A stretch of 64,000 nucleotides of DNA. Source: Branchiostoma lanceolatum. Taxonomy: Eukaryota; Chordata; Leptocardii; Amphioxiformes; Branchiostomatidae. The DNA lies in the NCBI RefSeq assembly GCF_035083965.1, contig NC_089722.1, positions 19,709,142 through 19,773,141 of the forward strand, given 5' to 3'. The notes beneath the pieces were generated by a model. The model was not told the origin of the DNA. It did not search any database and worked only from the letters and a program-made list of their open reading frames with translations. Numbering within the stretch: position 1 is the first letter of the stretch; each line of letters opens with the position of its first letter. The position numbers and the translations under genes are program-made. Shown here piece by piece: positions 861-62,275 of the stretch.

Positions 861-3800
861 TTTCACAATCAGCTTACTTGTAGTTGATTAATGAAATGGG
901 AGATGGTTATGATTTTTGTAGTAGGTCATGATCAGAAAGTTATTGAGCGCATTTGTTATGTTTTATGCACTGTCAGAAGGTGACCTTTTTTAATATGTTT
1001 ATGACAATATCATTAGTGGATTTCTAAAAAGTTAGAGTCGACTTTTCTAGTCCTTAATTTTGAAATGACATGGAGAGTTATTGCAAGAAACATATGAGTT
1101 TATACAGTTATGTCATTGTATTTTTTATACGCAATGGCTATGTATATATTTGAAATGATAGTTGCAGATCTTTATCTTTATATGACAGCTATGATGAGTA
1201 GGTTAGGTTTTGTGACCTTTAAGTTGCAACGGGATACAAAAATGGAGAGGACAGAAATCGCTCACATAAGACCAAGAATACTCACCATTAAATCTATCAG
1301 CAAGCACGTATAAGTATTGCTAGAAAAGTTGCAACACATTAATCTGACTGGATGTAAGTAAGATTTACCCATGTTGTCACAACGTGTCGTATTTTGCATC
1401 GTATGCACAGTGTCGAATGATAAACAAAGCCAACGTAAGTAACTTTATCTAAAGTTTGAGTCACGAATTTTGTCACTTCTACTACGAATTATATTAGTAT
1501 CTATCAAGGAGGTTTTTGGTATCTATCTAATCAATGGAACTGTAAAGTCATGCTTTATCTTATATCAATGTCTATGTCTATTTATATTATTTTTCATTGA
1601 AAATTGATAAAGAAATCTAAACAAATTAGACTTGAAAAAAAGCCAACGTCACTCAGTCCACACACTCACCTATCACCGTGACGGTAACCTCGACTGTAGC
1701 CCCGGTCACCAGTTGCACCCCTCCAGCGGTTATGTTGGCTACACAGGAGTAAACCCCCTCGTGGCGCCTCTCCGCCACCGGCAGCTTCAGGTGCGCCCCC
1801 TGCCGACTCTGACCCGATGGTAGCACCCACATGACGTCAGCAACCGGCCTGCTCTCTACGTCACACACCAGGATAAGTGGGTCCCCCTTCTGGATTTCCA
1901 GTGGGGATGTGGCATTAATGACTGGCGTGTCAACGTCTGAATGACAAGAAGGAAATTAATTTTGGTCATCAAATTTAAATTGATAAGCTGATTCACGGTT
2001 TCAACTGCTCATTAGCAGTGTGGTACTTTGTAGGTCATGTGTTATTATAAAGGCCCCTGAGATATACATAAGCAAAACACGTTTGGACATAAAAGCAAGC
2101 ATGTTCAAAACAAGAACTGCTGGATTACAATCTCGAAGCCTTTGACCAGTAGCACATTCGCAGTTTAAATCTTGTACCGACTTATTGTTAGATGGGTGCG
2201 ATGTGTTCTAAACGTCCTGGTTGACGAACTTCACATACTATAAAGCAATATAATGTCAGCCATGTTATTCCTAAGCATTTTCCTATGCAGCTCAGCCTCG
2301 CCCGCAGCCTGTACTGTATACCTGATTGGAGGCTCTGCTAGACCGGGCTGAGGTTTCCACTTTTGTGGGCGTGGCCTCTAACCAGCTCTCAGCCAATCAG
2401 AGAGTAGGCTTTTCCTAAAGAAAACATTTTCTCAAATTGTCGATTCTCTGATTTGCTTAGAGCTGGTAACGCCCGCAAAGCTGGAAACCTCAGCCCGGTA
2501 TAGCAGAGCCTCCCAAGACACATTGTGTAGGACGCGAGCGCCGGAGGCTCTGAGAATATTTCTGTCAGTAGAGTGCTTGTGTTGATCGTTTGTGGATGAA
2601 TGCAACAAATGCTTACATGATATGTCAAGAGTGACAGAACAGTTCCTAGACTTAATAGGTTCTGGATGTTCCTCTAGACAGACATACACAGCTCCGCCAT
2701 CTTGTTTGGTGACGTTGAGGTCATAGGTCAACTTGGACCAATCCGCCGTTTTGTTGCCTACTTCCAGGAGGGAGCCATTACTGAGTTGCTGGTACCACTG
2801 CGGTGATGACTCGCGGCCGGAGGTGGAACTGCAGGATAGCGATGCGTTCGTCCCCGCGACAAGGTTGTCCGATGACACCGAACACTCCGGGGGACTTGGG
2901 TTGTCTGTAAAGTAAGAGTTTAAGCTAGTTCACTGTGTGAAGTGTGCATGTGCATGTGATGCACTGTGGATGATATGTCAACAATAGGGGCCTTCAACTT
3001 TGACATATTACTCACAATGCATCACACTGCACACGCGCACTTCAAATTGTGAACCAGCTTATGACTATTGACAATAAGTAACATTTTAAGATAGTTCACT
3101 TCAAAAGAACACAGCAAAACCAAGGATGTATCTCAGCTAAGATGAGTGAAAGGTGCGAACGAGCTGGTCTATCTCAGTTGCAGTCTCCTTGACTGTCGCC
3201 AACGTGTGGCAGGTCCAGTACTACAAGTAATGTTTCGGTCCCAATTGGAAAAAATAGGGGCCCCGCCGGGTAGTTCACGGGCTGTTTTTGTTGCACTTTC
3301 GGGCGTGACCCCTACGTGGCCCCGTGGGACACCCTGCGGCTGCCGGATTTTGGGGCCCGGCCGGGCCCCGCGGTGAATTTAGCTCAGACTTAAATTGAAC
3401 GCGGGGCCCGGTTATAAGTAGACACCGCGAGCAAATTGTGCGAGCACCGAGAGGTAATCCCCCCTCGTACCCGGTTATCCACCGGGACAAATTTGCGATG
3501 TCGCCCGGGGCCCTGCCGGGACTACACACCCGACGGGCACCGGCGCAATTGAAAGAAACGGTTGACTCACCAACGACGAAAACTTCAACGAATGCAGACG
3601 ACTCTCCGGAGTCCGATCCCGACATGTCCGAGACCTCGCACTCGTAGGTGGCGGCATCGCTCTTCTCGACGCCTTTGATCTTCAGCGTGACGTCATCCAC
3701 TATCTCTGCGCGCCCCCTCAGGCTCCCGTAGGCTATGGACGTTAGCACTGATCCTGAAAAATGGTGGACTTGAGGAATCTAGCATATTTGGATTTCCCCA

Positions 3801-20161: not shown

Positions 20162-23100
20162 CTATTTCGTGTCCACCATGGGCATGCCGTTGGCGTTGTT
20201 CTTCTTCTCCCCCGACGCCCTTCGACTGACGGCCGGAGACACACCCTTACGCCGCTTCTTGCGTCTGGAAGTAGAACAAGACGGGCAACGTTTCTTTTAA
20301 TACTTGACTATTGACTATTGACATAACAGAAAGAGGCTATTGCCTGTAAGTTCTGTTTCCAAACAACAGTATAAAATAGATAAATGTCCAGAGTCTATGT
20401 GGGCGCATACTCCAAACACTTCCAGTAGGTGTTTAGTCTGGATTTGAAGGCATTGGCAGTCTCAGCTGCTACCACGTCCGCAGGAAGGCTGTTCCAGAGG
20501 TTGATTGCCCTGACAGTACTTTTAATACTTTCCATACATGTCATCCAGCTCTTTGTCCGTTTCCAAATGTGTTAAAGTAACATTTACTAACGTAAATTCA
20601 CCAGGGTATTCCGCCACCGGTGAAAAGATCTCCAACCCGCCTACCTCCAATATGTTGAAAATCGCTAACTAGCGCTCCTATTAGTAATTAATTATCGCCA
20701 CGCACATAGAAGGCTGCAAAGGAGGCTAGTCAAATATGCAGGGGCTTTATAAGAAGTACGTCTATCTACAGCCTCCTTCACACTTATGCGTATATACAAG
20801 TCCGCCTGATATGAGTTACGTTTTAACATGTTTTTGGTTTAGGTTAAGTTTGCCGCCGAAGAAGTTATTTATTATTTGGTTCGATAACCAGGCTGCACGA
20901 CGGTGCATTAAAGTAGAAAACAACTTCTTTAGCAAACTTTACTAAACCCCAAAATAATGTTAATGCGCAACTCATACGTACTTGAATATACACACACGTG
21001 TGATAGGGCCCAAATGTGTTATGCCCCCCCTCTCACTGGACACGCGGCACGCTGGCGGCATCGCTGCGGCCGATTCGATTAACAAAGCACTCAACGAATT
21101 TCGTGAACAGTACTTGATCTTTTGTTTTGTTGTGACTTGTACTTAGCCAAGATATTTCGTGGCAGAAATGTGCAATAAAGGTCTTCATTCATTCATCGCC
21201 AAAAAACAAATCTTTTTAAGCTTTGTGTTTTTTTGTCTATTTGGTCATACTTGTAAATTTGAATGATACTCCCATTATTAAGTCAAGGGTAACACAAAGT
21301 CCAGTTTAGGACGAAGCGACGCCGCCAGCCTGCCGCGGGTCCAGTGAGAGGGGGGCATAAGACATTAGGGCCCTATCACACTTGTGCGTAATTCAAGAAC
21401 ACAAGAGTTGCGTATTCAAACTTTTTTGGTTTAAGTAAAGTTTGCGGGAAGAAGGGCTTAATGTCTTACTTGAGCGCGGCGATGATGATGCAGGCGAGCG
21501 CGGCGAGCACGATGAGCGGCAGGATGACGGCCAGAGCGATGACCCAGCCGGGCGTGCCGCGGGTAGCTGCAGACGGAGTCAAGAGAGAGAAAACTTTTCA
21601 GAGACTGAATTTCCTAGAGACATCTTCATAGAACACTTCGAGTAACATCATTTTCCAAATGCAACTACGTTGCGTTACATTATGCTTTGGTCCCATTTCC
21701 AATCCGGGGCCCAGCCGGGCAGCTTGTTGGAACTAAATATATGATATAAAAGACAACAAAAGACACAAAACGTACAAGAATTACTCCTAACCATATATTG
21801 TGTATTTTCTTGATATGCATTTTTTCAAAAAGCCCAGCCGGGCCCCGAATTGGAAATGGGACGGAAGCATTAGTGGGTTTGTTGAAAGCAAATTGAAACC
21901 ATCCTTGGGTCAACCTTTGGATGAAATATGTGTTAAGAACAGAAGAAAAAGAATGCAACTAATGTTTTATTCTTTGGCTATCAGAATGAATTGTAGAACT
22001 AGTACCGTTGCAGTTACTATATTCATGACTGTGCTTACTTTGAAAGTTAAGCTCTGTTGATCCTTTGGGAAGGTTTAAAAATACAGCTGCAATATCGGTA
22101 GAAATCTTACGTGAGTTGAGAACTCAGCTTTCCTACGTGCTGTGTATGTAACATCTAAATTCCACCAGGGTACACAATTCCGCCACCCTGAAAAGATACG
22201 TCTAAACAGATATCCAACCCAACGTCCCCCCGTATAATGCAGTCCTGTACTTCTTAACCGTGCAAACCTGGTGTGTGCTGCACTAGAGATCTCTCAAACC
22301 CACTGTTTTTCAAAGTGGCGGATTTATGTAACCCGGCGGATTAATCTTAATGGAGATTGATACCTTATCCCAAGATATTGAGCCAAAGAAGCAAGAGATA
22401 CTAAAACCGTGCGTCGTGCATTAATGCTGCGTGTTAAAGATAGAGAAAGCGCCTACAGGTCTGGCAGTGTCCGCCGGTGAACTCATCTGTGCAGGTACAG
22501 GTGTAGACGTCAATCATGTCCACACAAAGGCCCCCGTGCTGGCAGGGGGAGGAGTCACACTCATTTATGTCTGCAGGGGATGCATAGAGGAGGTCAGCGA
22601 TTGGCCAGCAAATTAACTAAGACGAACATTGATAGCCTCCACCAGGCCTATATATATGCGAGGGTATGGATCGTAGAATTCGACAAGAAGGGGAATAATT
22701 GGCCAGGAGAGTCAGTCCATGAGAAGGTTAACATTTCCCCCTCCGCGTGCAAATGAAAATCTTACGGTGGCCAAACTCTCCTGGCAAATTATTCTCCCTA
22801 TAGCCAGCAACAAGACAATTGCAGCAGGAGGCTTTAAAAAATCACATGCGCAAGAAAGATATAGAACAAAAGATGCAGACGACAAAAGAAAATCTATGAT
22901 AAATCTGTTATAAACAGTTGACCTGAAAATGCACCACCCCCCCAGGTCCCAACTAGTCGATGAAACTGGCCAACTAAATCTATTTCTTTTCTGACATAAC
23001 GCAAAACATGTGTTAGAGATGTTTTCCATTATTAAGTTAACACAAGTTGGACAAAAAAATCCCATTTGATTGTCTGTTTGTTTGTTTGTTAATCATTTGG

Positions 23101-26100
23101 CACCTACCGTCCGAACAGAAGCGTCCAGTATAGCCCACAGGACAGTCGCACTCATACGATCCCAGGTTGTTGTTGCAGGACGCGTTGTTCTCGCAAGGGG
23201 ACGACAGGCACTCGTCGACATCTGAGGAGAACAACAAAACAAGTTCAAGGTAGGAAAGCTCAAAACGACAAGGAGAGACAGCTTCTTCAGGCAATTTCCA
23301 ACCCTCCAACCCCATTTCCAACCCTTCCAAACCTATTTCCAACCCTTCCAAACCTATTTCCAACCCTTCCAAACCCATTTCCAACCTCATTTCCAACCGT
23401 ATCACATTAGATGGAAGTTATCAGGTCGACCGAAACGTGAGATAGTGCATGATTCATATTTGTAGAACTGAGTATACTTTACAATGTGAAGGCAATAGCA
23501 AGTCAAGCTTGACCAGGCGTATCTAAATGCCCTGTTACACATAGCCGACCACGGCCTTCCGACCTTTACCAAATCATGGTTGAGAGTTCGTCGTGAGTTA
23601 TGCAACGGTCCCATTTCCAAAGCGGGGCCCGGTCGGGCTGTTGCGAAAACGAAAAAAAAAGAAATGCATATCAAGAAAATACGCAATGTATGGTTAAGAG
23701 TTTAAGAGTAATCTTTTTACGTTTTGTGTCTTTTGTTGTCTTTTATATTATATCTTCCGTTCCCACAAGCTGCCCGACCGGGCCCCGCTTTGGAAATGGG
23801 ACCGATTGAAAGCTACTCCTAACCCAGCGCCGACTTGGTTGGGGAGTGGACGGGACCAAAGTCATGGGAAGGTCCTTATGTGACAGGTGATAAGAGCCCC
23901 TCCTGCACATAGCCGGCCATGGCTGGCAGTCGATTAGGAGCAAGGTCATGCAGCCACGCTGTGTGGGCCAATCACAAGCTTCCATTCCTACTGGCTGTAC
24001 AAATGACGGTGTGCAGTTGAAAATTGGTTGGCATTCGTGGACGTGGACGCATGTGGGCGGGAGCTAGGTCTGGAATGGGTTGGGACACGGTTGGGGACTG
24101 GTTGGCTGGTGGTGGTGAGTGGAGTCAGCAGTGTGGGTATATACCATCATAAAACAGTTGACCTAAATATGCATTCATCCCTCTCGTCAGGTCCAAATAA
24201 TCAACGAAACTGGCCAACTAAATCTATTTCTTTTCTGACAAACCACGCACAAATGTGTTGGAGACGTTTCCCATTCATGTAGTCTTGCCAAACGTGCTAT
24301 CTGAATAAAGTCTCTTATCACGAATTGCAGATCTTATGTCCCCTTTTTGGTTGTTTGGGTTTATTTGTCTGTTTGTTTGTACGTATAAAAATGAATAGCT
24401 CACCTATGTCACACCTTTCCCCCACCCACCCAGGCTGACAGTGACAGATGAAGCCCGCCCATTGGTCCTCGCAGCTCACGGCGTGCACGCAGGGGTCAGG
24501 GCTACAGTCGTCCGTTTGGGTCAGCGCTAGATGGTTAAACAAAATGATAGTCATTCATTGGACAATATCATATATAGCCACGCTGTCTGGACCAATCAAA
24601 AGCTTCTATTCCTACTGACTATACAACCCTAACGTCGTAGGTCTTGCTGCTTAAATGAAACTGAAATAAAAAGATATTTACTTCGCTTTTCGACAGAAAA
24701 AGACGACGTGACACTGCACTCAGGTTTTTCATAACTTATACCAACATAAAGAGATTTCAACATAAAACTATTTAAGTGTCAGTTTGAAGTAGCTTTATGA
24801 TAATAACGTTAACGACCCACTTCCCTCTGTGTTAATGGAACGCCTGACCAGTGGCATTCAACCAACGGTGTCCTTATGCGTTATGTCACCGTTTAAGACC
24901 TTGCAGCGGGTCATTAACCCTTGATTGACTATTCTCTAGAAACACACATCTAATGCATAGGAATGCATCCAAATTTATAAATGTATACCGTGCAAGTTCT
25001 GAATAACGATATACTCACATATCTCGCAGATATAGTGGCGTTCTACGTCACAGTTACTGACGTTAAAGGTGTGGATCGTGGCGTTGTTCTCGTTCCCATG
25101 GACGAGGTAGCCACACCCCGAGGTCTCGTTCCACAGGTCCAGGTCCCACAGTCCCCAGCCGGGGTCTACAGGTGATACATGTAGGAAAGAAGGTGGCACT
25201 ATTGAGCCTGTATCGAGACTAGCAAGTCATCCTCGCAACAGTGAAAAATGGGACTTTTTACACACAATAGGTGCAAAAAGTTCTTTTTACATACAAAGTT
25301 GGTCTAAATCTAGCCTGACTTAAACATTGTCTTCTGTAAAACTATTTATGATCTAAAATCATTGATAGAAAAGCATACCCGTTGCCATGGCAACTCCATT
25401 ACTCGCTTGGAACGCCCCATGACCTGGCTCGTACTGCAGCCCGATCCAAACGTCCTCCGCCGTGTGGGTGTAGTTCGCGACGAACCGGTAGGTGGAGCTG
25501 TTGGTGACGGCAGCCAGGCGGGCACCTTGGCGTGCGCAGTGGCCCCGGGCGTCGGCGTAACTGTACCGAGCCCCGGTAAACTCCCTGAAACAGGAGCCCT
25601 CGAGCCGAGCCCAGCCTTGTGGACAGGCGTGAAAATCTGTGGGTTGCAAGAGCAAGATTTTCGTTAAAGGAAACTCAAGTAATATTAGGGCCCGAAAATC
25701 GGATTTTGAAAGTCAATTTATTTAGTCATTTCTATACATGATTATACTCGAAATAACTAGTAACTACTAAACTATTGTGTGATTCGTACGAAAAAGCACC
25801 AGCGCAACTTTTTCACTCACTTCGTCTTTTGGCATCTTTTGCTAATACTAACTAAGTAAATGTGCTAAATGATCAGGTCTCGTACCTTTGCAAACTTCGC
25901 CATCCCGATAGGTGCCAAAGTCGCAGTAACAGGAGAATTCCCCGGGGGCGTTGTCACAGAAGAACCCGGCAGGACACGACACGATACCGGACAGGCACTT
26001 GTCAAACACTGCATAGGATATAGACAAAAAAGGTAGTGATATGCAATCCCATAGCCTCTATAAGGCCATAGGTTGATATCCACTGTGTCAAGAGCACGGT

Positions 26101-26411
26101 ATTGGAAGGCGGAAGCCATCCCTCTCCTTCCACTGCAGCTGCCTTTAATCTCCCCAACCGAAGTCAGGTACCCCTTTTTACATCTGAGTGGAGTGAGAAA
26201 GGTTGTGTAAAATGCCCTTCCCAAGGACACAAGAGTGGTGACATGACAGGACTCGAACCAAAGACCTCTGGGTTATGAGCCAAACGACCTGCCGTTACGC
26301 CATACGACCCCGCCCCAAAACATAGACAAACGAGAAATCAAAGATCTCCGTGAAGTATTTAGAGAGATTTCGTAAATTTCTTGACCAGGTATAACACAGC
26401 CATGTTCACTG

Positions 26412-26494
<83 letters not shown>

Positions 26495-29400
26495 AAACAA
26501 TACCTCCGTTGTGACATGAAAATGCAGGTGTTAATGTTGCATCGTTAAAAGAAGATAATTGAACATTATCATAGCTATGGGGCCTACCAGCTATTTTATT
26601 GGTATTCAATTTTTTAGCCTGCCACCAGAAGTTGTTGAGTCAAGATTGGTATCTTTCAAGTTCGGAAGACACAAGGTAACTCTCTACATGATATATCAGC
26701 GATAGAATGTTCAGAATCACTCACGTTTTTTGCAGACAAAGTTGGTAACGGAAAAACAGGATATGTCGTCCCAGTTTCCTAAGAACAAAAAGAAGAACAA
26801 TGGTTGGTAGTACAATGGTAAACTTTCTTCCACCCCAAAGGGCACACAAAATAGTTGATGACAAATGTAAACGAGCAACTTTCCTCAGTTTTTGTTAGTA
26901 AGCCAGAGTTTCGTATTACTCTCTCGTTTAACATTTTCTGAGTTTCAGTCAAGATTCGATACACGTAAGTTGCGTGTATCGAATCTTGAAAATAATCAGT
27001 GGATTTTCACAACCAGAATGTGTCTATGGAGATGCGGAAACCTAAACACTAACACGTCGTTGACCGATACCTCACGAACACCTCACGACACACTCACGAC
27101 GCCTTACGAAACGTTACGATAACATAACGACACGTTGCAATCGCACTGACTGCATTTCTCCACAGAATCGTACACGGAAGGAAACCATAACATTAACATA
27201 CCGTAGAAGGGCACCTCACGAACAAACACGACAAACTCGCGACACCAAATTAAATGTTGCGACAACACGATGTAGAGCTCCAAACTTACCGCCTTTACTT
27301 CCCCCACGCAGCTGTGCGCGCGGATACCATAAACCACAACACTAACACCTCGTTGAACGACATCTCGCGAACAAACAAGACACACTCACGACGCCCTACG
27401 AAACATAACGACAGCGATGCACACTTACCGCCTTTGTTTCTCCACAGGGCTATGCAGGAGACACCGAGGGCGTACCTGGGCTCGCCTGGATGAAACTGCT
27501 TATAGTCCACAGGCGTGCTGTCCTCCCATGTAAACACTCTCTGTACAAACAGAACACCGTCAGTATACTATCGTATTTTATATAGCACAGGGGTCGGCTG
27601 GGTGCCGAATGATTCCGGGCGCCGGGTACTAAGTACGTCAAATCACTTGTAGTGTAGTACGGTAGGTATCTATTTTCGTGTAGATATCAATAATACATAT
27701 ACGAAAATATACCCTGCTACTGAAACAGCAAAGAAACTCGCTGCCCTATGTGCCACTAGGCACTACAAGGGTCTGAACGAACAAAATATACACGTACCCT
27801 GCTACCCTGCGACAGAAATAGCAAGGAAACTTGCTTCCGTATGTGCTACTAGGCACTACAAGGATCTGAACTAACGAGCGAACGAGCTTACCGTGTCTGT
27901 TAGTGCGCACTAGGCACTACAAGGGTCTGAACGAACAAAATATACACGTACCCTGCTACCCTGCGACAGAAATAGCAAGGAAATTTGCTTCCGTATGTGC
28001 TACTAGGCACTAACGTAACATAACCAATTTACGTCCGATTTATTCAAAACGTATTTATCTTAAAACCGCACGGACAGAGCCAAATGTTAAACCCATGGTC
28101 AGAAATATCAGCTCTTTTAAAAAGAAAATGCATGGTCTGTAAGTTTTTCTCCGCCTATTTAACGCCGCGCGAGCATGTATTTATACTTAGGTATATGATG
28201 AAGAATTGTGCTAGGGTAACCCATTATCGTCCACCTCGGTCTTTTCCCTTCTAGCGCTATGCTGGAAAAACATAGACCAGAAAAAATGCACAGTAACTGT
28301 CCAAAGTAGTCTGCAGACAAATGATAATAAAATCACTATGTCTGTCCGGCCACTTGCTTAACGCGATGGAAAAAAATGCTTATTTGTAAATTCCCCCCAC
28401 ATGCGCGGCACGTGGCGATCACGTGGTAAACGCGCGCATGGCCATTATGTTTTGCTGTGCAAAAATTAAAGAGATGGCTAAGGATCATACTTATGATGTT
28501 CTTTATTGCTCATGAGAACAGGCTTTGGCATAATACACCGTGACATGTGGACATGAGCCAAACCGGACGTAAATAGGTTCTGCACGTAAATAGGTCATGT
28601 TACGTTACAAGGATCTGAACTAACGAACGAACGAGCTTACTGTGTTTGTCACGGTCATGCCTATCCATCCACCGTTCGGTTCAGCGACGGTCCAGATGAA
28701 GTCGTTCTCCTCAGCGGAGTGGGCGGAGGTGAGAAACCCGCCCTCCGCCTGGCAGTAGTCGTTAGCGTCTTCGAAGGTCAGCTTAGGATCGGTGACGTAC
28801 TTGTAGAAATACCCGTTGTACTGATGAAACTGGACTGCAGGTAGAGAGTACACATGGTAAAATGTAGCCTAGTGACCATGAACTGAACTGCAGGTAGAGA
28901 GTACAGATTGTAAAATGTAGCCTAGTGACCATGAACTGAACTGCAGGTGGAAAGTACACATGGTAAAATGTATCCTGGTGACCACTAACTGAACTGCAGG
29001 TGTATGGAAACTACACAAGGTAGAATGTTTTCAGTTTACTCTCGAAGTAATTGAGACCAACCCCGATAAAAACATCCCGGCGTTTGCCAATGAACTGGGC
29101 GGGTGGGCATCACTCCCAGTACCGTATAGATATCGGGGGTTACCAGGCTATTAAAATGGCGTCTTTGGTTATTTCCTACAATCATTGTGACGCATCATTA
29201 CAATTTTAGCAATCTAAAAGACGTACCGCTGTAGAAAAAAAAGAAAGAAACACGTCTCCTTGGAGATTATGTAATGAGATTGAAGTGTCTTACATTCGCA
29301 GTGAGAAACGTTGCAGTACTCAAATCGGACGCTAGGGTCCGTGGTGTAGCACCAAGGTCGGTTTTTCCCGTCAGGGTTGCGGCAGAAGTTCTGTTCGAGG

Positions 29401-30421
29401 CCGCTCTGTGGGAAGGCGGCGTGCGTGTAGGGATGGCGGTGGGGGGACTGTGTGTTCCAGGGCTGGCAGGTCAGCCCGCCTTCCGTCACGCTGAGGTTTC
29501 CGCGATAGTCTCCGCCGTTGGTGATGGTGTAATAGCAGTCGGCAGGATGAAAAGCTGAGAAAGCGGAAGAAATACATGAATGAAATACATTTAATATCCA
29601 GAACAGTCCTGTCCTTGGTGCTGAACACCTTCCAACTATGCAACCTTTGCACATGTAGCTGCAAGCGTTGTTTACAGCTATCTGATGAGGACGCCCCTAC
29701 TGTATTAAGTGACAACAGGTTCCACCATGTAGTAAAGGACAACTTCAATATTTATTGCATATTTCTTAATGATCGTTGATAAAATAGTCCTGAAATTACG
29801 CTGACGACTAGGTTGTACATACACGATTTTGGACTGGCACTAAAATGCTTGACGCGTTGCAAGACCAGTGTTTGGGAAGCCACTATACATAAGCTAAGAC
29901 AAAACGTAAATGCCTGGCGCGTCTTGAAGATTCCTCAAAGAGGGTATGCATAATATTAAGGTGGCACGGTGGCTGTTGACTCAGAACCTGGAGGTACTGA
30001 GTTCGAATCCTTGACAGGTCCCGATGTTGTGCCCTTGGGAAAGGCACTTAACACCCAAATTAGCATAGTACCTAGCTTGGGATATGAACGTCCCCCGGAT
30101 AGGACATCAAATTGAGGTCCAATACGTGTTTGAGGAGAGCCACACCTCGGACACGATAAAGAACCCACCACACTTCTCAAAAAGAGTGGGGCTTCATACC
30201 AAAGTGAGTGGATGAAATAAATCTGTCCGGATATGCAGCCTGTACTCTTCAGTACAAACCTGGTGTGTTACGCCATGAGGCAGTTTACCGGATATACAAT
30301 ATAAGCAAGCAAAGTAATAAACAAACAAACAAACAAACAAACAAATCCTACCTCCATTGACTTGATTCGCCGTTAAGAAGAAGATGAAACCGACAAGGAC
30401 AGTACAGACACGGAGTGACAT
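20162..30421 (-). CDS. Kringle / C-type lectin / EGF type I membrane receptor (complete, 589 aa)
   Basis: Thirteen coding exons, minus strand: 30421-30352, 29554-29294, 28834-28641, 27540-27429, 26778-26725, 26008-25886, 25636-25379, 25165-25019, 24526-24404, 23221-23108, 22570-22457, 21566-21470, 20264-20162. They sum to 1770 bases with all phases closing. Domains: signal peptide 1-23; kringle about 30-107 ([28 protein letters not shown]); C-type lectin 1 111-230 ([25 protein letters not shown]); EGF 231-271; C-type lectin 2 272-406 (long form with six Cys, ending [10 protein letters not shown]); EGF 407-447, 448-485 (DVDEC) and 486-523 (DINEC), the last two of calcium-binding type; transmembrane 531-555; tail 556-589, basic next to the membrane (KRKKRRK) with an RRAS phosphosite-like motif. 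Lectin 1 keeps a WDD-like calcium/sugar position but lacks EPN or QPD. Lectin 2 lacks both. It probably binds matrix or glycans at the cell surface; the ligand is unknown. Confidence 0.93.
20290..20535 (-). mobile_element. LINE fragment (CR1/Jockey-like ORF2 C-terminus and 3' end)
   Basis: The minus strand reads [20 protein letters not shown] followed by KSRLNTYW and a stop, the typical C-terminus of CR1/Jockey-clade ORF2 (WN-LP--VV-A---N-FK--L--W). A short 3' part ends in GTCAATAGTCAATAGTC. It is 5'-truncated and lies in the last intron of the receptor gene. Confidence 0.75.
20593..20645 (+). mobile_element. fragment of the CCACCAGGGTACA MITE family
   Basis: TTCACCAGGGTATTCCGCCA and GAAAAGATCTCCAACCC match the left third of the copy at 32.11 kb. 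The remainder is absent. Confidence 0.55.
20771..21012 (+). mobile_element. MITE of the CACACTTGTGCGTA family
   Basis: About 50 bp inverted ends (CACACTTATGCGTATATACA at the left, complement of GTGTGATAGGGC at the right). The body, with GGTTTAGGTTAAGTTTGC and GTAGAAAACAACTTCTTTAG, matches the outer element at 52.93-54.07 kb in opposite orientation. Confidence 0.8.
21022..21364. mobile_element. MITE of the CTCGCTGCG family with an inserted LINE tail
   Basis: Ends CCCCCCTCTCACTGGACACG and the complement of GTCCAGTGAGAGGGGGG. Bases 21102-21198, ending GTGCAATAAAGGTCTTCATTC, interrupt the family sequence between CAACGAATTTC and AACAAATC and look like the 3' end of a LINE. It lies in the last intron of the receptor gene. 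Confidence 0.75.
21367..21457 (+). mobile_element. half copy of the CACACTTGTGCGTA MITE
   Basis: GGGCCCTATCACACTTGTGC through TTTGGTTTAAGTAAAGTTTG, the left half of the family. It stops about 10 bp short of the 5' splice site of the transmembrane exon (21470/21469). Confidence 0.65.
21689..21862. mobile_element. MITE of the GTCCCATTTCCAA family
   Basis: About 30 bp inverted ends: GGTCCCATTTCCAATCCGGG at the left and the complement of CCGAATTGGAAATGGGAC at the right. The inside shares ATGATATAAAAGACAAC and CTTGATATGCATTT with the inverted copy at 23.61 kb. Confidence 0.85.
22157..22345 (+). mobile_element. MITE of the CCACCAGGGTACA family
   Basis: Begins AAATTCCACCAGGGTACAC and ends GTAACCCGGCGGATTAAT. 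It is the best-preserved right end of the family. It lies in the intron after the last EGF exon of the receptor. Confidence 0.85.
22632..22806 (-). mobile_element. MITE, TAGTCTCTACCAG family
   Basis: TAGCCTCCACCAGGCC, GGTATGGATCGTAGAATTC, AATAATTGGCCAG, GGTGGCCAAACTCTCCTGG and CTATAGCC are in the order of the 57.5 kb copy. Confidence 0.65.
22906..23040. repeat. intronic segment duplicated at 24150-24285
   Basis: Both copies carry AACAGTTGACCT, GAAACTGGCCAACTAAATCT and ATTTCTTTTCTGACA in the same order. Each lies roughly 70-120 bp from the 3' edge of an EGF exon of the receptor gene. Confidence 0.8.
23286..23400. repeat. 20 bp minisatellite in the receptor intron
   Basis: Five to six units of TTCCAAACCTATTTCCAACC type, about 65 bp upstream (minus sense) of the EGF exon at 23221. 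Confidence 0.9.
23530..23890. mobile_element. MITE of the GTCACACATAG family, interrupted by another MITE
   Basis: The left end, CCCTGTTACACATAGCCGACC, and the right end, GTCCTTATGTGACAGG in complement, flank the GTCCCATTTCCAA-family element at 23607-23803. A further fragment (GCACATAGCCGGCCATGG) follows at 23905. Confidence 0.65.
23607..23803. mobile_element. MITE of the GTCCCATTTCCAA family (nested)
   Basis: GGTCCCATTTCCAAAGCGGG at the left pairs with the complement of CCGCTTTGGAAATGGGACC at the right. The inside is the reverse orientation of the 21.69 kb copy. Confidence 0.85.
26040..26325 (-). mobile_element. tRNA-derived SINE
   Basis: The minus-strand head near 26320 (ATGGCGTAACGGCAGGTCG, then box B GGTTCGAGTCC) is followed by the family body. 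It lies in the receptor intron between the 26725 and 26008 exon edges. Confidence 0.7.
26410..26493. repeat. (GACA)n microsatellite
   Basis: About 20 uninterrupted GACA units. Confidence 0.98.
26950..26988. repeat. short perfect hairpin
   Basis: CAAGATTCGATACACG and its exact complement CGTGTATCGAATCTTG are separated by 7 bases. It lies in a receptor intron. Confidence 0.9.
27040..27430. repeat. tandem intronic repeat carrying copies of an exon end
   Basis: About three units of roughly 135-140 bp share AACACTAACA, TCACGAACA and CACTCACGACGCC modules. The segment at 27291-27315 duplicates the real end of exon 4 and its donor (27425-27450; CTTACCGCCTTT on the plus strand). Confidence 0.75.
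27768..28013. repeat. near-identical repeat pair flanking a copied donor site
   Basis: 27768-27860 and 27909-28013 are almost identical (GAACGAACAAAATATACACG, GCGACAGAAATAGCAAGG, TGTGCTACTAGGCACT). Between them 27859-27905 matches the exon 3 donor region at 28605-28645. Confidence 0.85.
28831..29030. repeat. four tandem units, each carrying a splice-acceptor-like site
   Basis: A unit of about 55 bp (ACTGCAGGTAGAGAGTACAC, GGTAAAATGTAGCC, TAGTGACCATGAACTG) repeats four times. The first includes the real acceptor of receptor exon 3, at 28835/28834. Confidence 0.9.
29960..30349 (+). mobile_element. tRNA-derived SINE with (AAAC)n tail, next to the exon 1 donor
   Basis: Box A-like GTGGCACGGTGGCTG, box B GAGTTCGAATCC, then body GCCACACCTCGGACACGATAA and GTGGATGAAATAAATCTGTC, ending in (AAAC)n. 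It is the most complete SINE of the window. Its tail stops within about 8 bases of the exon 1 splice donor of the receptor gene. Confidence 0.85.
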
Positions 30422-30702
30422 CGTTCCTCTGTGGGGATGGAATAAAGTGAACAACATGTAACAGCTTGTACTACCCGTGTGGTAAGTATGTAAGCAAAAT
30501 GCTACTGATTGTATTGTACCATGAAGGTCGACCTTGCATTCGGTGTATACAGTACTATGATCATATTTTCGTATTCATTTAAACAACAAAGTACAGCAGT
30601 AACAAAAACAGAAACAAGTACAGTGCAATTGTTTCTTGCCCCCTAAAGTATTATATTCTTCTCTATCTTTGAGCACATATTGTGCATATTGATACTAGTG
30701 TT

Positions 30703-33264: not shown

Positions 33265-34650
33265 ACAACATAAAAAAAGATTGCTCTGGGGAGCTTTCGA
33301 GACGAATTCTCTGTCTCTTCGTCAACCCGGTAATAAAGTCAGATCTCGTCTTGGAGTTCTCCTCTTGTCACGTGACTTGATGTTGATTATCACGTGACAA
33401 GAGACAGTCATATACAGGCTTGAGATAGTGACGCCCCCTGTCCCTGTTTAAGGTACTGCGTTGTCTGCGGATTTGGATCGCCTCCCGAACACCTCTAGAA
33501 AACCAGTCGGAGTCCTGATCCAGCACTTTCACATTGTCCCAGTTTATCTTGTCTTTCTGCTTGGCGACGTGTTGCACCACAGGTGATGACACATTGCTGG
33601 GTCTCTTGTGTTCCTGTAGACGGGCGCTCAGTGGTCTCTCCGAATCCCCTACGTATGTTGCAGGACAGTCTGCACAAGGAATGTGGTAAACTGTTCCACT
33701 GCGTTCCAGCTTCTTAATCTTGTCCTTAGGTGCGACAAGATTACGTCTGATGGTGTTGATGGGTTTGAACTGACACTGTATCCCTTTACTTCTGTACAGT
33801 CTCATGAGTGTTTCAGATATGCCTTTGATGTACGGAATGCTGACTGTCCCCCTGCGTATCACTCTTGTCTGGTTGGATGGAGTTCTCTTGCTTCGCTTTT
33901 CTTTGCTTACATGGAACAACCAGTCTGGATAGCCACATGTTGACAGTGCATTGTGTATGTGTTCGATTTCCAGGGTCTTGTCACTTTCCTCTGTGACGAT
34001 CACATTGGCTCGATCGGTAAGGGTTCGCACTACACCTATTTTGTGCTGGAGTGGGTGATGACTTGTGAAGTTCAGATATAAGTCTGTATGTGTTGGTTTC
34101 CGATAGACAGTGGCATAGAGTGTGCCATCAGGCCTTCGGTGGATCATAGTGTCCAGCATCGGTAACTTTCCTTCCGTCTCCCTTTCAATCGTGAACTTGA
34201 TGGCACTGTTAATATTGTTAATGTGAGTAGTGAATTCCTCTATCTTGTCCTTCATCTGAATCACAGACGTGTCATCAACGAAACGACCCCAGAATTTGGG
34301 AGGATTAGGTGCGGTTGAAATCGCCACTTCCTCGAAGTGCTCCATGAAAAGGTTTGCCACTATGGGGGATACAGGCGGCACCTTCCACTTGTTGGTAGTA
34401 AGTACCATTGAAGATGAAGTATGTCGTGGTGAGACAAAAGCGTAGTAGTTCTACCAACAGTGTTACGTTGAGGTTTGTCCTTTCAGAGAGAGTCTCGTCA
34501 TTCTTTAGTCGTTCCTTAATGACGTCAATTGCTTCTTGAATGGGGGTACTTGTGAAGAGTGCAGTGACATCATACGACACCATTTCTTCGTCCTCACCAA
34601 CGGTTAACTCGCTAATCTTATTTACGAAATGTTTAGAATTCTTGATTTAG
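33265..34650 (-). mobile_element. Penelope-like retroelement, 5'-truncated (reverse transcriptase plus GIY-YIG endonuclease)
   Basis: Minus-strand frames encode the palm of a reverse transcriptase (MVSYDVTALFTSTPIQEAI, SPIVANLFMEHFEE, the catalytic RFVDDTSVI, LPMLDTMIHRRPDG, YRKPTHTDLYLN), then a C-terminal GIY-YIG endonuclease with GTVYHIPCADCPATYVGD and RLQEHK, the order typical of Penelope-like elements. The N-terminal part is missing and the remaining reading frame is broken about once, so the copy is dead. The 3' end has GACGAAGAGACAGAG and CGTCTCGAAAGC hairpin motifs before an A/T-rich stop near 33265. It lies in the divergent intergenic region between the receptor and the PX-SH3 gene. 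Confidence 0.9.
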
Positions 34651-34733: not shown

Positions 34734-36560
34734 TCGATGATGCTTGTCTGTGTGTCTGTTAGTGAACAGAATAAGTCGAGAACGCCTGGATGGTTTGTTG
34801 TCGTATTTGGTGTGTCGGTGTGTATGTGGGAAATCTCAAGATGATTAGATTTTGGGCGAAGTGTTTTGCATAATTAACGAGAAAAGTGTAAAAATGTGTT
34901 AGATTGTATGCTCATACTATGCTTTCTGGTTGCGACGTGTGGGCTGTATTGTTTCAGGGGATATTGACACGGGTATTGGGTGCAAAGTTGGTCATGAGGG
35001 GTCATGAGGCAGGCAGGAAACGTCAGTTACTGCCAGGGACAAATTGGCTATCAGCCAGCTGTAGGGCAGATACAAGAGATAGACTTGCCCATATAGGCAG
35101 TAATGCTTTAAAGCACTAAAACAAGGGCTCAGAAAAGGATTCACCTTAATTGCAAGCCCCCAAAATTCTTATGCACCAGAAAGCCACATCTGTCTACTTT
35201 AGAATCATGCAAAGAAAATAGACAGTTGACCAGCTCGTTCTCTCGTAACAGCTGACAGACGAAAACAATCGTCAACTTTGACCTACTCCCAGCCTGGAAG
35301 AGTCCACTCGGAGCATGTGAAACCAAACCACAAAGATATCTCCTTACACCAATTAAAAGACTGAAACATACAAATTTTGACCAAAGTTGGATATACACGG
35401 CCTTATATGAGTAAGAACAGTCATTAATGCAGTGCCACAGCATGGGAATACCGAGCATGTCTGTGTGTCTGTTAGTGAACACGATAAGTCGAGAATTCTT
35501 GGAAGGATTGTCTTGGTATTTGGTATGTTGGTAGGTCTCGATGAAACCTGAAAATGATTAGATTTTGGGCCCCCTATCGGCTTGTTACGGTACTGCAGCG
35601 GAACTTCCTGTTATTATATCTCGTGTTGTGGACATGCTATGGAACTGATTTTTGAGTGGTAGATAGCTCGTTGGGCAGAGAGTAAGTGGTATAGGTTTGG
35701 GCCCCCTAGCAAATTTTTTGGAACTGCAGGGGTAGGTTTTGCTTCAGACTTTGAAAGGGAATAACTCAAGAAGGGCTTGATGGAAGGTCATGTTTTTTTG
35801 CATGTACATAGCTTGAGCGATGATGTACATGATTGGATACTTATTATGCAAATCAGTAACTAATTTGCATAATTAATGAGGAAAGTTTATACATTCATCA
35901 ATTTCCATGATAGGACTCGCAAACATGTGACATATGTAACTGAGGAAGAGAGAAATATTAATAGATATCAGCTATGCAAATGAGAACCTCATTTACATAA
36001 TTAATGAGAAAATAATATAACTCGAGATGGGCTTGATGGATGGTCATGATTTTTGGTATGTAGATAGCTTATGTGATGCTTTGTATGATTGGATGATAAT
36101 TATGCAAATCAGATTATAATTAATGAGGCAATTTTAAAAACCTGCTGTGTTCCATGATATGACTATTCAAATATGTGACATTTGTAACTGAGGAAGAGAG
36201 GGATGTCAATAGATAGAAATTATGCAAATGTAGGCCTAATTTGCATAATTCATGAGAAACTACTATCATTCCATACTAGTAAATAACGGCAATTTCATAC
36301 TTGTTGCATTTAGAAGTTGTGTGAATGTGAACACCATTGAATCAAATTATGCTAATAAGGAGCTTATTTGCATTATTGATGAAAAATGTTAGCATAACCT
36401 TCTTTGTTAAGCTCATAATCATAACAAGGAGGTTTGGACAACTTATGTTATTTGGGTGAGGAGGATCAACTGGTATGATTTTTGATTGATGAAAAACACT
36501 CCTAATACGTCAGTCATAAAGGTCAAAATCATTTAGCGAAGGTATGAGGTCGTAGAACTC
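34734..36560 (+). repeat. ACCTTCGC-type dispersed repeat, long copies
   Basis: Two starts (TGTGTGTCTGTTAGTGAACA at 34746 and 35459) are followed by the GGGCCCCCTA and CTGCAGCGGAACTTCC segments. An AT-rich part with repeated ATTATGCAAAT and TTTGCATAATT follows (35830-36400), then GCGAAGGTATGAGGTCGTAG. No ORF with a known domain was found. Confidence 0.7.
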
Positions 36561-44100: not shown

Positions 44101-47100
44101 AAGGAGTTGTTTCGAGGTTAAATAACTGTCGCTGCTGCAGCGGGAAGAATGTGGTCCCAAACGTGACTAAGCTTATATCCCCCCTCACCACGGTTCATAA
44201 CTGGAGTAGATTTTCTGATCCATACAGCCTCCTTAATACAGCTAGTCCACATGCTGGCCTCTCTGTTTATCACCTTGGCCGGTCCGCGGTCCGAGTCTTT
44301 TACACAGTCGTTGAACAATGTATGTAACATGGTATTTTACAAAGCTACAAACAGGACATTCATGATTGGGGATTGCTGTATCGCATGTTCTGATGCCATA
44401 ATGCCCATATTTACCTTCGCCGAGAAGGTTATGTTTTGCACAGCGTTCGTGTTGTGTGTGTGTGTGTCTGTGAATGAATGAATGAATGAATGTGTCTGTG
44501 TGTGTGTGTCTGTGAACACGATAACTCAAGAATGCCTAAATGGATTGACTTCATATTTTCTAGGTGGGTAGGTCATGGTAAGACCTCGAAATGATTTGAT
44601 TTTGTGCCCCCTAGCAACCTTCTATAGTATTGCAGCGGAACTTCCGTTTTTGATATCTCGTGTTCTAAACATGCTATGGTCATGATATTTGAGTGGTAGA
44701 TAACTCTTGTTTATCATACATTTTCCCGCGGTAGGTACAACGGTAAGGAGGGTTACACGCCCTGTGTGTTCCTGACGCCCCTAGCGGATCCCATCATTAA
44801 TGTTAAGGTGTGGAAGAACCCGAACCGTCTGTCTCTGGCGCAGGGGGAGAAACAGGCTCTACTGTCGGAGACGCCAAACCTGTCAGCTGGGACCCCCATA
44901 CAGCCAATAAGGTCTGTCAACTATCGCTTATAATCAATCAATCAATCAATCAATCGATCGACCAACCAACCAACCAACCAACCAACCAACCAATCAATCA
45001 ATCAATTAATCAATTAATCGATATTTTTCTATTTTTCTTACACATGTCTGAATCATGTTGACTTGACATTCATGGAAGAAAAGAACTTGCAATTGATAGA
45101 AATGTTTTAAGATTCATAGACATTGAGATGTGGAATAATGAGCTTGAATTCGAAATGTTTACGGATATTCACTATAAAATATAGTGCGGTGTTACTATCA
45201 CTACACTAGGACTATAAACTGTGAATCATGAAATGTTCACGGTGGTTTAGGTTTTGCTGCTTTCGTAGTGCCCACCGCGAAAATATGCATTTTCAGTGTA
45301 TTGCTACTGTGATACAGAATTGTTTCAACAGCGAACTTAAAACACCGCGAAAATCCCATTTTACCGCGAAGGCAAGTCCCCGCGAAAACAAATGAATTCA
45401 AACATTTACAGAAAGGGCTACTAGAATATTCTTCAACCAGTCACTTTTGAAAGGTAACAAAACACGTACCTCCAATTTTTCGAAGTCCACTGTACGTCTT
45501 GATCACGGAGCATTTTACAGAAAGGTCTTATAAAAGCTATATGCAATGTCATGATTTCTTTTCTTGGCCACGCCTAAGAGGCGAGTCAAATTGTATACTA
45601 TCGTTTAAACTTTCCATAGGTCAACCTTCTACGGTCTGGAAGGATTACGTCATCAGTTGAGCGTTCTTACCCAGAATTCCACGGAGAACAACAGCACGAC
45701 GGAAGAAGAACAGCCGAACACAGACCCTTCCGACGACTCTTTCGAGAGTGACTGGGGAGACGACTTCGGTAGGGAACCACAGCCAAACACACACAGTTTC
45801 AGTTTATTCGATTAAAAATACATCGTAGCCCTTGGGGCTAAATTGCGTATTTCATAACAATTAAAAATCAGTCGGAATCACAAGTACTGTCCTTAAAATC
45901 AACATCAGCGGAACAAATTCTATACAAATATACATTACAATAGACTATATCTTACAGCTGATCTGTAATCTCCAAGCAGATCTAAGGGTGACAAAGACCG
46001 TATCCAACCCTTGGGTGGCTATGTAAACTCCTTTTGCCAGATACTGTTTCTGCCACTTTAGATCTGCGTGGAGATTAGCTGATCGGATCTAAACATTAAA
46101 AACTAAACTGCTGGTATAATCGTTAAGAAACTATATACATCTTACAATAACCTTGAAAATAAATAACACTGATGCTTTGGAAACCACTGAGGGCAACACC
46201 CTTCGACTGTAACTAAATGTGCCTAGAATTATTTTCCTATTAACATAGAAGTTAAAGATTTGTTAATAAGGAGGGAAAAGCTTGGAAAATCGTCGGAGTA
46301 GTACAAATTTAGGAACTTCGGGCTGCAAAATTTCACTTCTCTTTTAACTCTTTAATGATAGCGTGTGTGTTTTACCGGAAAAAAACAAACTTAATCTCTT
46401 CGGCGAGAGTGTCGAGAGAACTTTCTTTCATTGTTGGACTTGTCTTCGCCAGACGCCACGGACTCGGAGTCGGCCGAGCCGGAGCAGTACCGCGCCATCG
46501 CCGCCTACCAGTCCATGGACGACACGGAGATCAGTCTGGAGGCAGGGGACACTGTCGACGTCATCAAGAAAAACGAAAACGGTAGCACTTCTATTCCAGA
46601 TTTGATTATAGCATAAAGTCTTTACCCTTGCAGATGTAATGCTACAGGCAATATTGTTGGTGATCTAGAAGGCATGAAAACTACTATAAAAAATGTTTTG
46701 TATTATCTTTGTGTTTATCAGGTTGGTGGTATGTGACGTGTAAGGGTCAGTCTGGCTGGGCTCCGGCCTCTTACCTGGAACCAGTGGACCACTGCCCGGA
46801 AAAGGACGAAATAGCCCTCGGAGAAGGTACCTAGTATTCATTGTCTTGCCATGTACTAGTATGTCAATATCGTTTTACTGTATCAACTGCAGTCTGAAGA
46901 CAAATCGGTAGATGGCGTGCGTGACTGTACGATCCTGACTTTTGTTTTGTTGAAACATGACCATAGGCGAGCGGTACATCAGCAAGTTTGACTACCACGC
47001 CGAGAACGAAGACGAGGTGGATTTCGAGCGGGGAGAGACCCTGGTGGTCCTCAGGAAATATCTGGACGGCTGGTGGCTCGTCAAGTAAGTTGCTCATTTT

Positions 47101-59600: not shown

Positions 59601-62275
59601 TTTATTAGGAATTTAGATCATGTAAACTGTATCCTTTTATATATCTTGCCTGACCCTTACATCTTCCCTCATGACCTCAATGAAAAGCGGTCTGCAGGCC
59701 GATTTGAGTTTCTCATGAATGAACAAAGGATCAAAGAAAAAAAACCTAACATAAACATCTTTCTTTTCCAGTACCGAGAATTTGGTGGACACGACTTTGA
59801 TGACGACAAGGCGGTCCGGTAGCCTACGTACAATCAAGTCTGAACAGACAGCTATCCTCAGCGGAAACAAATCCAGGGAAAGTCTAATAAACTCTGTGTC
59901 TACAAATATTTCTGTCAAAGAGGCCCCAGCGCCTAAGAGAAAAGTCAAAAGAATAGTTAAGAAAAAAGTTATCAAAGTACGTAAGAAAAAGCGCAAGACT
60001 CCGGAGGTACCGAAAAAGGAGATCGAGACAAGCAATGATACAAGAAACTTTACGGATGCGCAAAGTTTACATAAACCTTTAGATAGCCTGGAAAAAACAG
60101 CGATTAATAAATCCATTGTAGAAGAAATACCAAAATTAGTATCATTATTACGTGCGGAGAACGCTACAAATCACACTTCTTTCGCATCGCCCGATGTGGT
60201 GAAACAAAGTCCGGATGTTGGGACAAATTTGACCAAACCTGAGACAGCAAAAGCACCTCCGAAGCCGAAGAAGAGAGTCAGGAAAGTTATCCGAGTCGTC
60301 AAACGTGTAAGGAAGCCGAAGACAGTTGCCCAAGGCAAGAAACCTGAGTTGACTTTCCTCACAGAGAGATTTCAAGCTCTCAATAGTTCAACACTGGTGC
60401 CAGGGTATTACAACAGCACAGAGGTCGAGAAAATGAGGCAAGTTTTTTGGTTTGTTTTCAATTTATTTGAATACATGCTAGCATGCTATTAGGTTCCTGC
60501 GCTAAATGAATTTGACATCTTTTTGAATGTTTATTTCGATGTGTGAGTTTTTAGCTTAGTGTTAGGCCATGTTGATTTGATTATATGGATGACATCCGCG
60601 CGCGCATCAATAAAAAATAGAGAAACATTTTCGGCTATGCTGTAAATCGTGAAAAGCAGATGCAAAATAAATACATGCTGTAAATTGAAAAAAAAAATTA
60701 GAAAACGGATACTAATGTCGTAGAATGCTTAAGTTGATTCCAAAGTCAAAGAAGAAGTTTTGAAGGAAAATGAGGAATCTATATTTCGGTATACCATACT
60801 CTGTGTTTAGATTTGTTCATCCTTCCTGAACACGTAAATGTCATAATGAAGGCAACTTTTTTTTAGGCGAAACTTTTTTTTCTTCGCACGCTCGCATCAG
60901 TTTTGGAGTCCCCATAGAATGTCATCCATATAATCAAATCAACACGGCCTTACACAGAATGTAAGTGACTGGGTTTTGTATCTAACTAACAGAATGACAT
61001 TGTTCACTTTCCAGAAAACACGTCTTGAAGTTTTACAGCCCGGAAAAACACTTAACGATGACGACATCTAACCTACGAGTTGGCCAGCACGTGAAGTACG
61101 AAACTGGGGGAGGTTATTTCAACGTCACCGAGAACTTCTTCAAGGTCACCCCTACAGAGTCTCCACTACAGGGCCGCCATTTTAACTCGTGCGCAGTCGT
61201 AGGGAATTCTGGGATCGTTTTGAACAGTAAATGTGGTCCACAAATCGATTCCATGGATTTCGTCATCCGGTGCAATCTACCTCCAATCACAGGTTACGAA
61301 AAAGACGTCGGCTCGAAAGCAAACTTCACCACGATGAATCCATCGGTGATTCCATGGTACTATAGAAAATGGCTGAGAAACAAAAAGGACCACGAACGTT
61401 TGTTGCGTCGTTTGAGGCAGATTGGGGACCAAATCTTGTACGTTCCCGCTTTTACAAATGCCGGTGGAGGTCACGTGAACGTTGTTGCTAGGTTCATGCT
61501 GCAATACAATCTTCAGATAAAGACAGCGTTTCCGCCTGCCGGGATCAACAATGTCGTCAAATCGTAAGTTAGCGTTCCTTTTATCATGTTTAACCATTCT
61601 TCTTCTTCTATTCCAAACAAATAAGGTCCTGAAGGGGATATAGGACTTCAAAACGGGGTCAAATCTATAGGGGCCAAACGAGAAATCTATCTCGTCTTTG
61701 CCACTGTTGCCTTCTGTCCAGCCCAGCCACAGGTTACATTTTATTGCCCCAGTTTTTCCTCAAGGAAATTCCATTAGAGGCAAAATCCTATGCATACCTC
61801 TGGGGCGCCAAAATGGTAGCCTGGCACTCTGAGTAGCAAGGCATGGTAGACAGCCCACTATTTTCCGTAACCCCCGCAATTTCTCTGCTAGTATCCGCCT
61901 AGTATGCTACCAGTAAACTCAGAGTAGCATTCGAGTTTACTGATATATTTCGAGTAAACTGTGTATACTCGTCTGGTATCCTTACACTTTTTGTCCTAAT
62001 ATTTCAGAATCTGGAAAAACTCGCAGTTCAAACTCCACCGCCCTTCCACGGGTGCCCACATGTACGCGCTGGCTGCTACGATATGTGACAGAATACACAT
62101 GTACGGGTTCTACCCCTTCAGCACAGACCCCTTCGGAACGAACCTCAGGTACCACTACTACGAGAAGAGAAAGATGGTCAAAGTTGGCACTCACAACATG
62201 CCCGAGGAGTTCAGGGCGTTGCAGATGCTCCACCAGCGGGGCGCACTGGTACTGCATACAGAACCCTGCCAGTGA
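56675..62275 (+). CDS. ST8SIA-like: Alpha-2,8-sialyltransferase, ST8Sia family (GT29), type II Golgi protein, complete, 551 aa
   Basis: Four coding exons: 56675-56847, 59772-60437, 61015-61563, 62008-62275 (1656 bases, phases close). Residues 1-12 are cytoplasmic, about 13-31 a signal anchor (GGIVILFLMNVMMSYMVW). Residues 58-279 (exon 2) form a very long stem with two strongly basic blocks (KRKVKRIVKKKVIKVRKKK and KPKKRVRKVIRVVKRVRK) and several N-glycosylation sequons. The catalytic domain has sialylmotif L at about 337-384 (CAVVGNSGIVLNSKCG, DFVIRCNLPP, TTMNPSVI), motif S at about 473-500 (HRPSTGAHMYALAATICDRI), motif III HYYE at 512-515, motif VS around H525-E530 and the penultimate Cys550 usual in ST8Sia enzymes. 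It should add alpha-2,8-linked sialic acid to glycans in the Golgi. Acceptor type is not decided by sequence alone. The intron after 60437 has a GC donor (AG/GCAAGT), required to keep frame. A pyrimidine tract and AAG directly before the ATG may be a 5' untranslated exon boundary. Confidence 0.95.
57467..57805. mobile_element. two TAGTCTCTACCAG-family MITEs, head to head
   Basis: TAGTCTCTACCAGACTAACT at 57467 is mirrored exactly by the complement ending at about 57637, giving one foldback. A second copy follows to 57805 (GAGGGAATATTTGCCAGG, TTGGCCACCAGAGG, CCGTAGGAAGGCC). Both are in intron 1 of the sialyltransferase. Confidence 0.75.
58294..58359. repeat. short foldback
   Basis: CCCTGTGTAGGTGTCATTCA and TGAATGGCACCCACACAGGG pair with two mismatches around an A/T-rich loop of 26 bases. 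Confidence 0.85.
58727..59087. mobile_element. MITE with about 85 bp inverted ends
   Basis: TACTCTCCAAGCAGAGGAGT at the left and the complement of CTCCTATGCTTGGAGAGTA at the right. The pairing continues through GTTTTTGTCGGGCTTTCTA and TTTGTCATGTT. It lies in intron 1 of the sialyltransferase. Confidence 0.85.
60563..60952. mobile_element. MITE of the TAGGCCATGTTGATTTGA family
   Basis: It is 390 bp long with 33 bp inverted ends. The interior is homologous to the inverse of the 39602-39987 element (ACTGATGCGAG, CTTCATTATGA, CAGCATGTATTTA). It fills most of the 577 bp GC-AG intron of the sialyltransferase. Confidence 0.9.

Follow-up and report, generated by a model that had tools for sequence, protein, structure and literature searches.

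The window, the whole 64-kb (64,000-nucleotide) stretch of Branchiostoma lanceolatum DNA analyzed here, carries on its minus strand, from 30421 to 20162, a gene whose 13 exons splice in frame into a coding sequence of 589 residues plus a stop codon. Exon ends were set by eye and joined by script, and this in-frame joining reproduced the exon count, protein length, strand, and module order given in an earlier note on this DNA. From N to C terminus, the predicted protein consists of a signal peptide, a kringle, a first C-type lectin domain (CTLD1), EGF1, a second C-type lectin domain (CTLD2), EGF2, EGF3, EGF4, a transmembrane (TM) helix, and a basic tail. The exons and what they encode are as follows:

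Exon 1, 30352..30421, minus strand: start codon and signal peptide.
Exon 2, 29294..29554, minus strand: the entire kringle, in a symmetric 1-1 exon of 261 bases with 6 Cys, matched on its own by Pfam PF00051 (1.3e-28) and by PDB kringles.
Exon 3, 28641..28834, minus strand: first part of CTLD1, with Pfam PF00059 (9e-18) running over exons 3-5.
Exon 4, 27429..27540, minus strand: middle of CTLD1, with a GEPR motif.
Exon 5, 26725..26778, minus strand: end of CTLD1, with a WDD motif.
Exon 6, 25886..26008, minus strand: EGF1, with 6 Cys, under the Pfam cut-off.
Exon 7, 25379..25636, minus strand: first part of CTLD2, a six-cysteine form, with Pfam PF00059 (1.4e-13) running over exons 7-8.
Exon 8, 25019..25165, minus strand: end of CTLD2.
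Exon 9, 24404..24526, minus strand: EGF2, Pfam PF00008 (1.7e-07).
Exon 10, 23108..23221, minus strand: EGF3, Pfam PF07645 (1.6e-09), passing the calcium-binding EGF model.
Exon 11, 22457..22570, minus strand: EGF4, Pfam PF00008 (1.2e-08).
Exon 12, 21470..21566, minus strand: transmembrane helix, with hydropathy of up to 3.15 over 19 residues.
Exon 13, 20162..20264, minus strand: basic cytoplasmic tail and stop codon.

An extra in-frame ATG occurs at 30457, 36 bases ahead of the modeled start of exon 1. A good 3' splice site (8.2 bits, first base 30428) lies immediately before that same modeled start, so that an untranslated exon may exist farther upstream. Third codon positions in the gene have a GC content of 0.74, versus 0.42 in its introns.

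Splice sites were scored with generic matrices, taking as candidates the GT and AG dinucleotides in each exon's open frame from 20 nt inside the modeled exon outward. In this test, which is only partly blind because its bounds were taken from the gene model, 23 of the 24 modeled sites came first within their open frame, and the remaining one, the exon 8 acceptor, came second; three of the 24 (exon 9 acceptor, exon 11 donor, and exon 12 donor) had no competitor. The best-scoring sites agreed in phase at all 12 junctions. Ten of the 12 introns are in phase 1, with one each in phase 0 and phase 2, and every one of the eight introns at module borders (1, 2, 5, 6, 8, 9, 10, and 11) is phase 1, bearing out the earlier description of nearly all domain borders as phase 1, a sign of exon shuffling. 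Eight of the 13 exons, the kringle exon among them, are symmetric 1-1. The assembly of this gene by exon shuffling is thus well supported by its phase-1 module borders.

The repeated acceptors ahead of exon 3 fell outside the splice test above and were tested on their own. They arise from a 53-bp tandem repeat of 3.3 copies (28828..29001, minus strand) that spans the boundary between intron 2 and exon 3 and multiplies the 3' splice site of this exon. Its CTGCAG sites, at 28993, 28940, 28887, and 28834, are spaced 53 bases apart, the last three scoring 7.7 bits each and the first 5.4. Only the nearest (28834) yields a stop-free exon 3; a longer exon 3 was rejected because stop codons interrupt the exon made from any of the three upstream sites, the farthest (28993) being in frame and still running into one. 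Splicing of exon 3 would need a choice among three equal sites, or would yield noncoding forms. Another tandem repeat, with a 21-bp unit, occupies 23294-23398 in intron 9, directly upstream of exon 10.

A Pfam scan of the full protein returned Kringle (8e-27), Lectin_C (3.3e-31, two stretches), EGF (1.3e-15, three stretches), and EGF_CA (1.3e-11), and one kringle, two CTLDs, and three EGF domains lie above the cut-off. The kringle scores 99.6 bits (cut-off 34.3) with six cysteines and covers positions 4-79 of the 79 in its profile, while the lectin domains score 65.4 and 52.0 bits (cut-off 22.6) and cover positions 2-107 and 2-106 of 107; the kringle and two CTLDs previously proposed are present as complete domains, CTLD1 being split over three exons and CTLD2 over two. 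The proposal of four EGF domains holds outright for three. The fourth, EGF1, is below threshold (20.7 bits against 27 for EGF_CA and 17.6 against 28.5 for EGF_3), yet has the six cysteines. With the calcium-binding EGF model (cut-off 27 bits), EGF3 passes at 38.3 bits and EGF4 falls below at 19.5; Notch and Delta repeats are the nearest matches of EGF2-4 among the best 60 of 96. Each extracellular module has an even number of cysteines (6/4/6/6/6/6/6, in order), and five of the eight N-glycosylation sequons lie within CTLD2. At the level of sequence, these matches already settle the module folds. The scan detected no protease or protease-like domain in the full protein, and no NCBIfam family, from a library oriented toward prokaryotes, matched at E 0.001.

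The signal peptide and transmembrane helix stand out as clear hydrophobic stretches, called from hydropathy alone rather than with a dedicated predictor, and agree with the earlier prediction of a type I membrane protein. Beyond the helix lies a cytoplasmic tail of 34 residues, with 12 K/R, 2 D/E, and the cluster KRKKRRK. It has no tyrosine and hence no tyrosine-based signaling motif.

The residues expected to contact ligands depart from the textbook patterns in both types of binding module. Lysine-binding kringles carry an acidic pair, D55/D57, and plasminogen K3 is not known to bind lysine, a lack ascribed to the Lys in its NPDGK. Aligned with PDB kringles (best 60 of 91 matches), the kringle described here also reads NPDGK, where the plasminogen kringles read NPDND (K1), NPDRE (K2), NPDGK (K3), NPDAD (K4), and NPDGD (K5); the second acid of the pair is thus replaced by Lys, as in K3. 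The second kringle of the solved HGF chain 4iua likewise reads NPDGK in this alignment (again among the best 60 of 91), which, judged by sequence, may mean that the missing acid does not decide ligand binding in general. In CTLDs, Ca2+-dependent sugar binding goes with the motifs EPN or QPD, plus WND. CTLD1 has EPR and WDD where EPN and WND are expected, keeping the EP and D of the site, and CTLD2 has no equivalents even of these. Neither CTLD has EPN or QPD at the sugar site, or WND; the protein's single EPN (residue 162) falls elsewhere in CTLD1, away from the sugar site. With a kringle that lacks one acid of the lysine pair and CTLDs that lack the full sugar motif, protein ligands appear likelier than sugars.

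Group XIV receptors are type I proteins with the order CTLD, EGF, TM, short tail. The CTLD-EGF-TM arrangement is present here, but with a kringle at the N terminus and two CTLDs with an EGF domain between them, where group XIV members have one CTLD, no kringle, and, in most cases, a sushi-like domain. A full-length Pfam scan at E 0.1 found no sushi domain in this protein. The members (thrombomodulin, CD93, CLEC14A, and CD248) are described in passages of PMC6852297 as transmembrane glycoproteins with a CTLD and EGF repeats, and the sushi-like domain is reported to have been lost on the thrombomodulin line (PMC9167495). From its sequence, the lancelet protein would work most like thrombomodulin or CD93, although we do not assign it to their family.

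The nearest PDB chains of CTLD1, by contrast, belong to the mannose receptor family (MRC1, E 3.8e-33; LY75, 4.9e-29; among the best 60 of 157). CTLD2 matches that family more weakly: its top match among the best 60 of 121 is LY75 (1.3e-14), a value that adds up repeats each too weak to pass by itself, followed by the single-domain chains aggrecan (9.6e-08) and CD69 (1.3e-07). Members of this family (MRC1, MRC2, LY75, and PLA2R1) have a ricin-type domain, an FnII domain ahead of the CTLDs, eight or ten tandem CTLDs, and no EGF. The protein studied here instead has two CTLDs parted by an EGF domain and a kringle in place of FnII, and a Pfam scan at E 0.1 found no ricin or fn2 domain; a mannose receptor identity was rejected on this disagreement in architecture. 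FnII and kringle belong to one clan, going by the clan name in PMC8409312.

Kringles and CTLDs occur in several other settings. Among the best 60 of 91 matches, the nearest solved kringle sequences are those of plasminogen and HGF, which differ in having a protease or protease-like domain. The limpet protein P-vulgata_14 carries a kringle and a C-type lectin-like domain on one chain, so that this pairing, which bears on the earlier suggestion of a lineage-specific receptor, is already in print, but the limpet protein is secreted and is listed with peptidase M12A, ApeC, CUB, two sushi, and ShKT domains, EGF not being among those listed (PMC7333891). Amphioxus adhesion GPCRs are membrane receptors with kringle, somatomedin B, or Lectin_C N-termini; they are G protein-coupled, and the relevant passages report no single receptor with both kringle and Lectin_C (PMC2246102). 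The flatworm Tmed-krg1 is a predicted membrane-bound kringle protein required for adhesion, although it has six kringles and no CTLD is named in the corresponding text (PMC9229212). No paper on a kringle, two CTLDs, EGF, and TM in one protein was found in the literature searched (mostly open access), and the passages retrieved fit the earlier statement that this is not a standard vertebrate architecture. Viral contigs, searched separately for sequences related to the kringle exon, gave 8 pattern matches, none of them confirmed.

Our overall best reading, which we consider probable, is that a single gene built from shuffled phase-1 modules encodes a type I adhesion or recognition receptor that captures protein or glycoprotein ligands. 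The kringle and CTLD1, followed by an EGF hinge and CTLD2, would form a protein-binding head, with the other three EGF domains as its stalk. Neither canonical lysine binding by the kringle nor the typical Ca2+-dependent binding of mannose or galactose by the CTLDs would be involved, the most likely ligands being proteins or glycoproteins bound for adhesion or recognition. The short, strongly basic tail would be placed at the border between membrane and cytoskeleton, where its basic cluster might, by analogy, couple to ERM proteins. Such a receptor would have no tyrosine-based signal of its own, and it is the lack of tyrosine in the tail that makes us lean towards adhesion or ligand capture. 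A possible role in defence or adhesion had been suggested before; motifs, modules, and tail together point to an adhesion/recognition receptor rather than to a classic lectin or a self-contained signaling receptor.

The 13 exons very probably belong to one gene. Joins at introns 3, 4, and 7 are independently supported by the lectin domains that run across them, and the joins from module to module are supported by splice signals and phase. A quite improbable alternative is that two or more same-strand neighbors have been falsely joined, such as a gene for a kringle protein and one for a CTLD-EGF receptor. An error of this kind is on record for a predicted lancelet Lectin_C + fn2 fusion that ESTs resolved into two genes (PMC4967905), and the symmetric kringle exon would keep the frame whether or not it belonged. 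AATAAA occurs in seven of the 12 introns (1, 3, 5, 6, 9, 11, and 12), which makes termination inside the gene possible; in all, the gene strand has 10 such signals in 14 kb (two of them past the stop codon) versus 5.7 expected. Against false joining, intron 2, between kringle and CTLD1, is 459 bases long, contains neither AATAAA nor ATTAAA, and is flanked by good splice sites (7.7 and 7.7 bits). Furthermore, when the minus strand was scanned across the full window for signal-peptide-like first exons, 16 candidates combined an ATG with a hydrophobic run and a donor. Of these, all seven within 20.0-31.5 kb belong either to exon 1 or to the in-frame ATG that precedes it by 36 bases; no second signal-peptide exon for a downstream gene appeared in this fixed-threshold scan, which misses weak or intron-split signal peptides. 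It is also unlikely that the kringle is an alternative cassette in a gene that mainly makes a CTLD-EGF receptor, with the kringle-bearing form minor. Skipping exon 2 would preserve the frame, as exons 1 and 3 are phase-compatible, and the repeat around the exon 3 acceptor, with its three equal sites, could disturb splicing; but both splice sites of exon 2 rank first in frame (10.7 and 7.7 bits), and the upstream duplicate acceptors lead only to stop-containing exons.

Accepting the one-gene model, the receptor could still serve another function. A role in defence, in which the protein would signal as a pattern-recognition lectin on Ca2+-dependent binding of microbial sugars, would suit the strikingly many multidomain CTLD genes reported for B. 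floridae, given as 300 (PMC10140915), as well as the reported enrichment of the C-type lectin domain among lancelet dispensable genes (PMC12373286), and CTLD1 does retain part of the sugar site. The missing sugar motifs in both CTLDs and the tyrosine-free tail nevertheless make this an unlikely function. We hold it similarly doubtful that the protein represents an undescribed receptor family in which a non-lysine-binding kringle was recruited as a recognition module beside two CTLDs, the kringle-CTLD pairing within one chain regulating ligand binding. The pairing would mirror separate vertebrate partners, plasminogen kringles and the thrombomodulin CTLD, the latter being reported to bind plasminogen kringle 1-5 (PMC6852297). 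An adhesion/recognition receptor for protein ligands remains our preferred reading.

Taken singly, the parts of the protein are ordinary; what looks unusual is how they are combined. The gene offers a way to test the disputed question of whether novel domain combinations predicted for lancelets are real or gene-prediction errors. Signs of such error were sought in the form of a second signal peptide, a poly(A) signal separating the kringle from the lectin part, and incomplete domains, and none was found. If transcripts confirm the model, the gene would add a kringle to a CTLD-EGF receptor plan, and the product would be a natural protein for probing kringle-CTLD contacts.

A tandem array of paralogues was considered and rejected, as a tblastn search of the window with the protein returned its own exons, EGF-EGF cross-matches (E 8e-4 to 0.034), and chance matches (E at least 0.24). 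Rfam (gathering score) and ARAGORN found nothing over the window. Two overlapping open frames at 33371-34646 (minus strand) resemble by eye a Penelope-type retroelement (reverse transcriptase and GIY-YIG); Pfam was empty for both at E 0.01, and the PDB at E 1 gave one unrelated weak match for the longer frame. A 248-bp tandem unit in two copies (77% matches) lies at 35761-36266, and weak immunoglobulin-domain exons (Ig_3 and V-set, under the cut-off) lie on the minus strand at 2435-2929 and 3278-3778. On the plus strand, two similar sets of SH3 exons like those of p47phox (NCF1)/SH3PXD2A (46395-46831 and 50443-51492, some pieces under the Pfam cut-off) mark a multi-SH3 adaptor gene, perhaps internally duplicated. 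Exons of an alpha-2,8-sialyltransferase-like gene, a kind of gene consistent with a deuterostome source though no proof of one, occupy 60998-61564 and 62000-62272 of the plus strand, with Pfam Glyco_transf_29 and, as the best PDB match, the alpha-2,8-sialyltransferase 5bo6 (E 1.7e-34).
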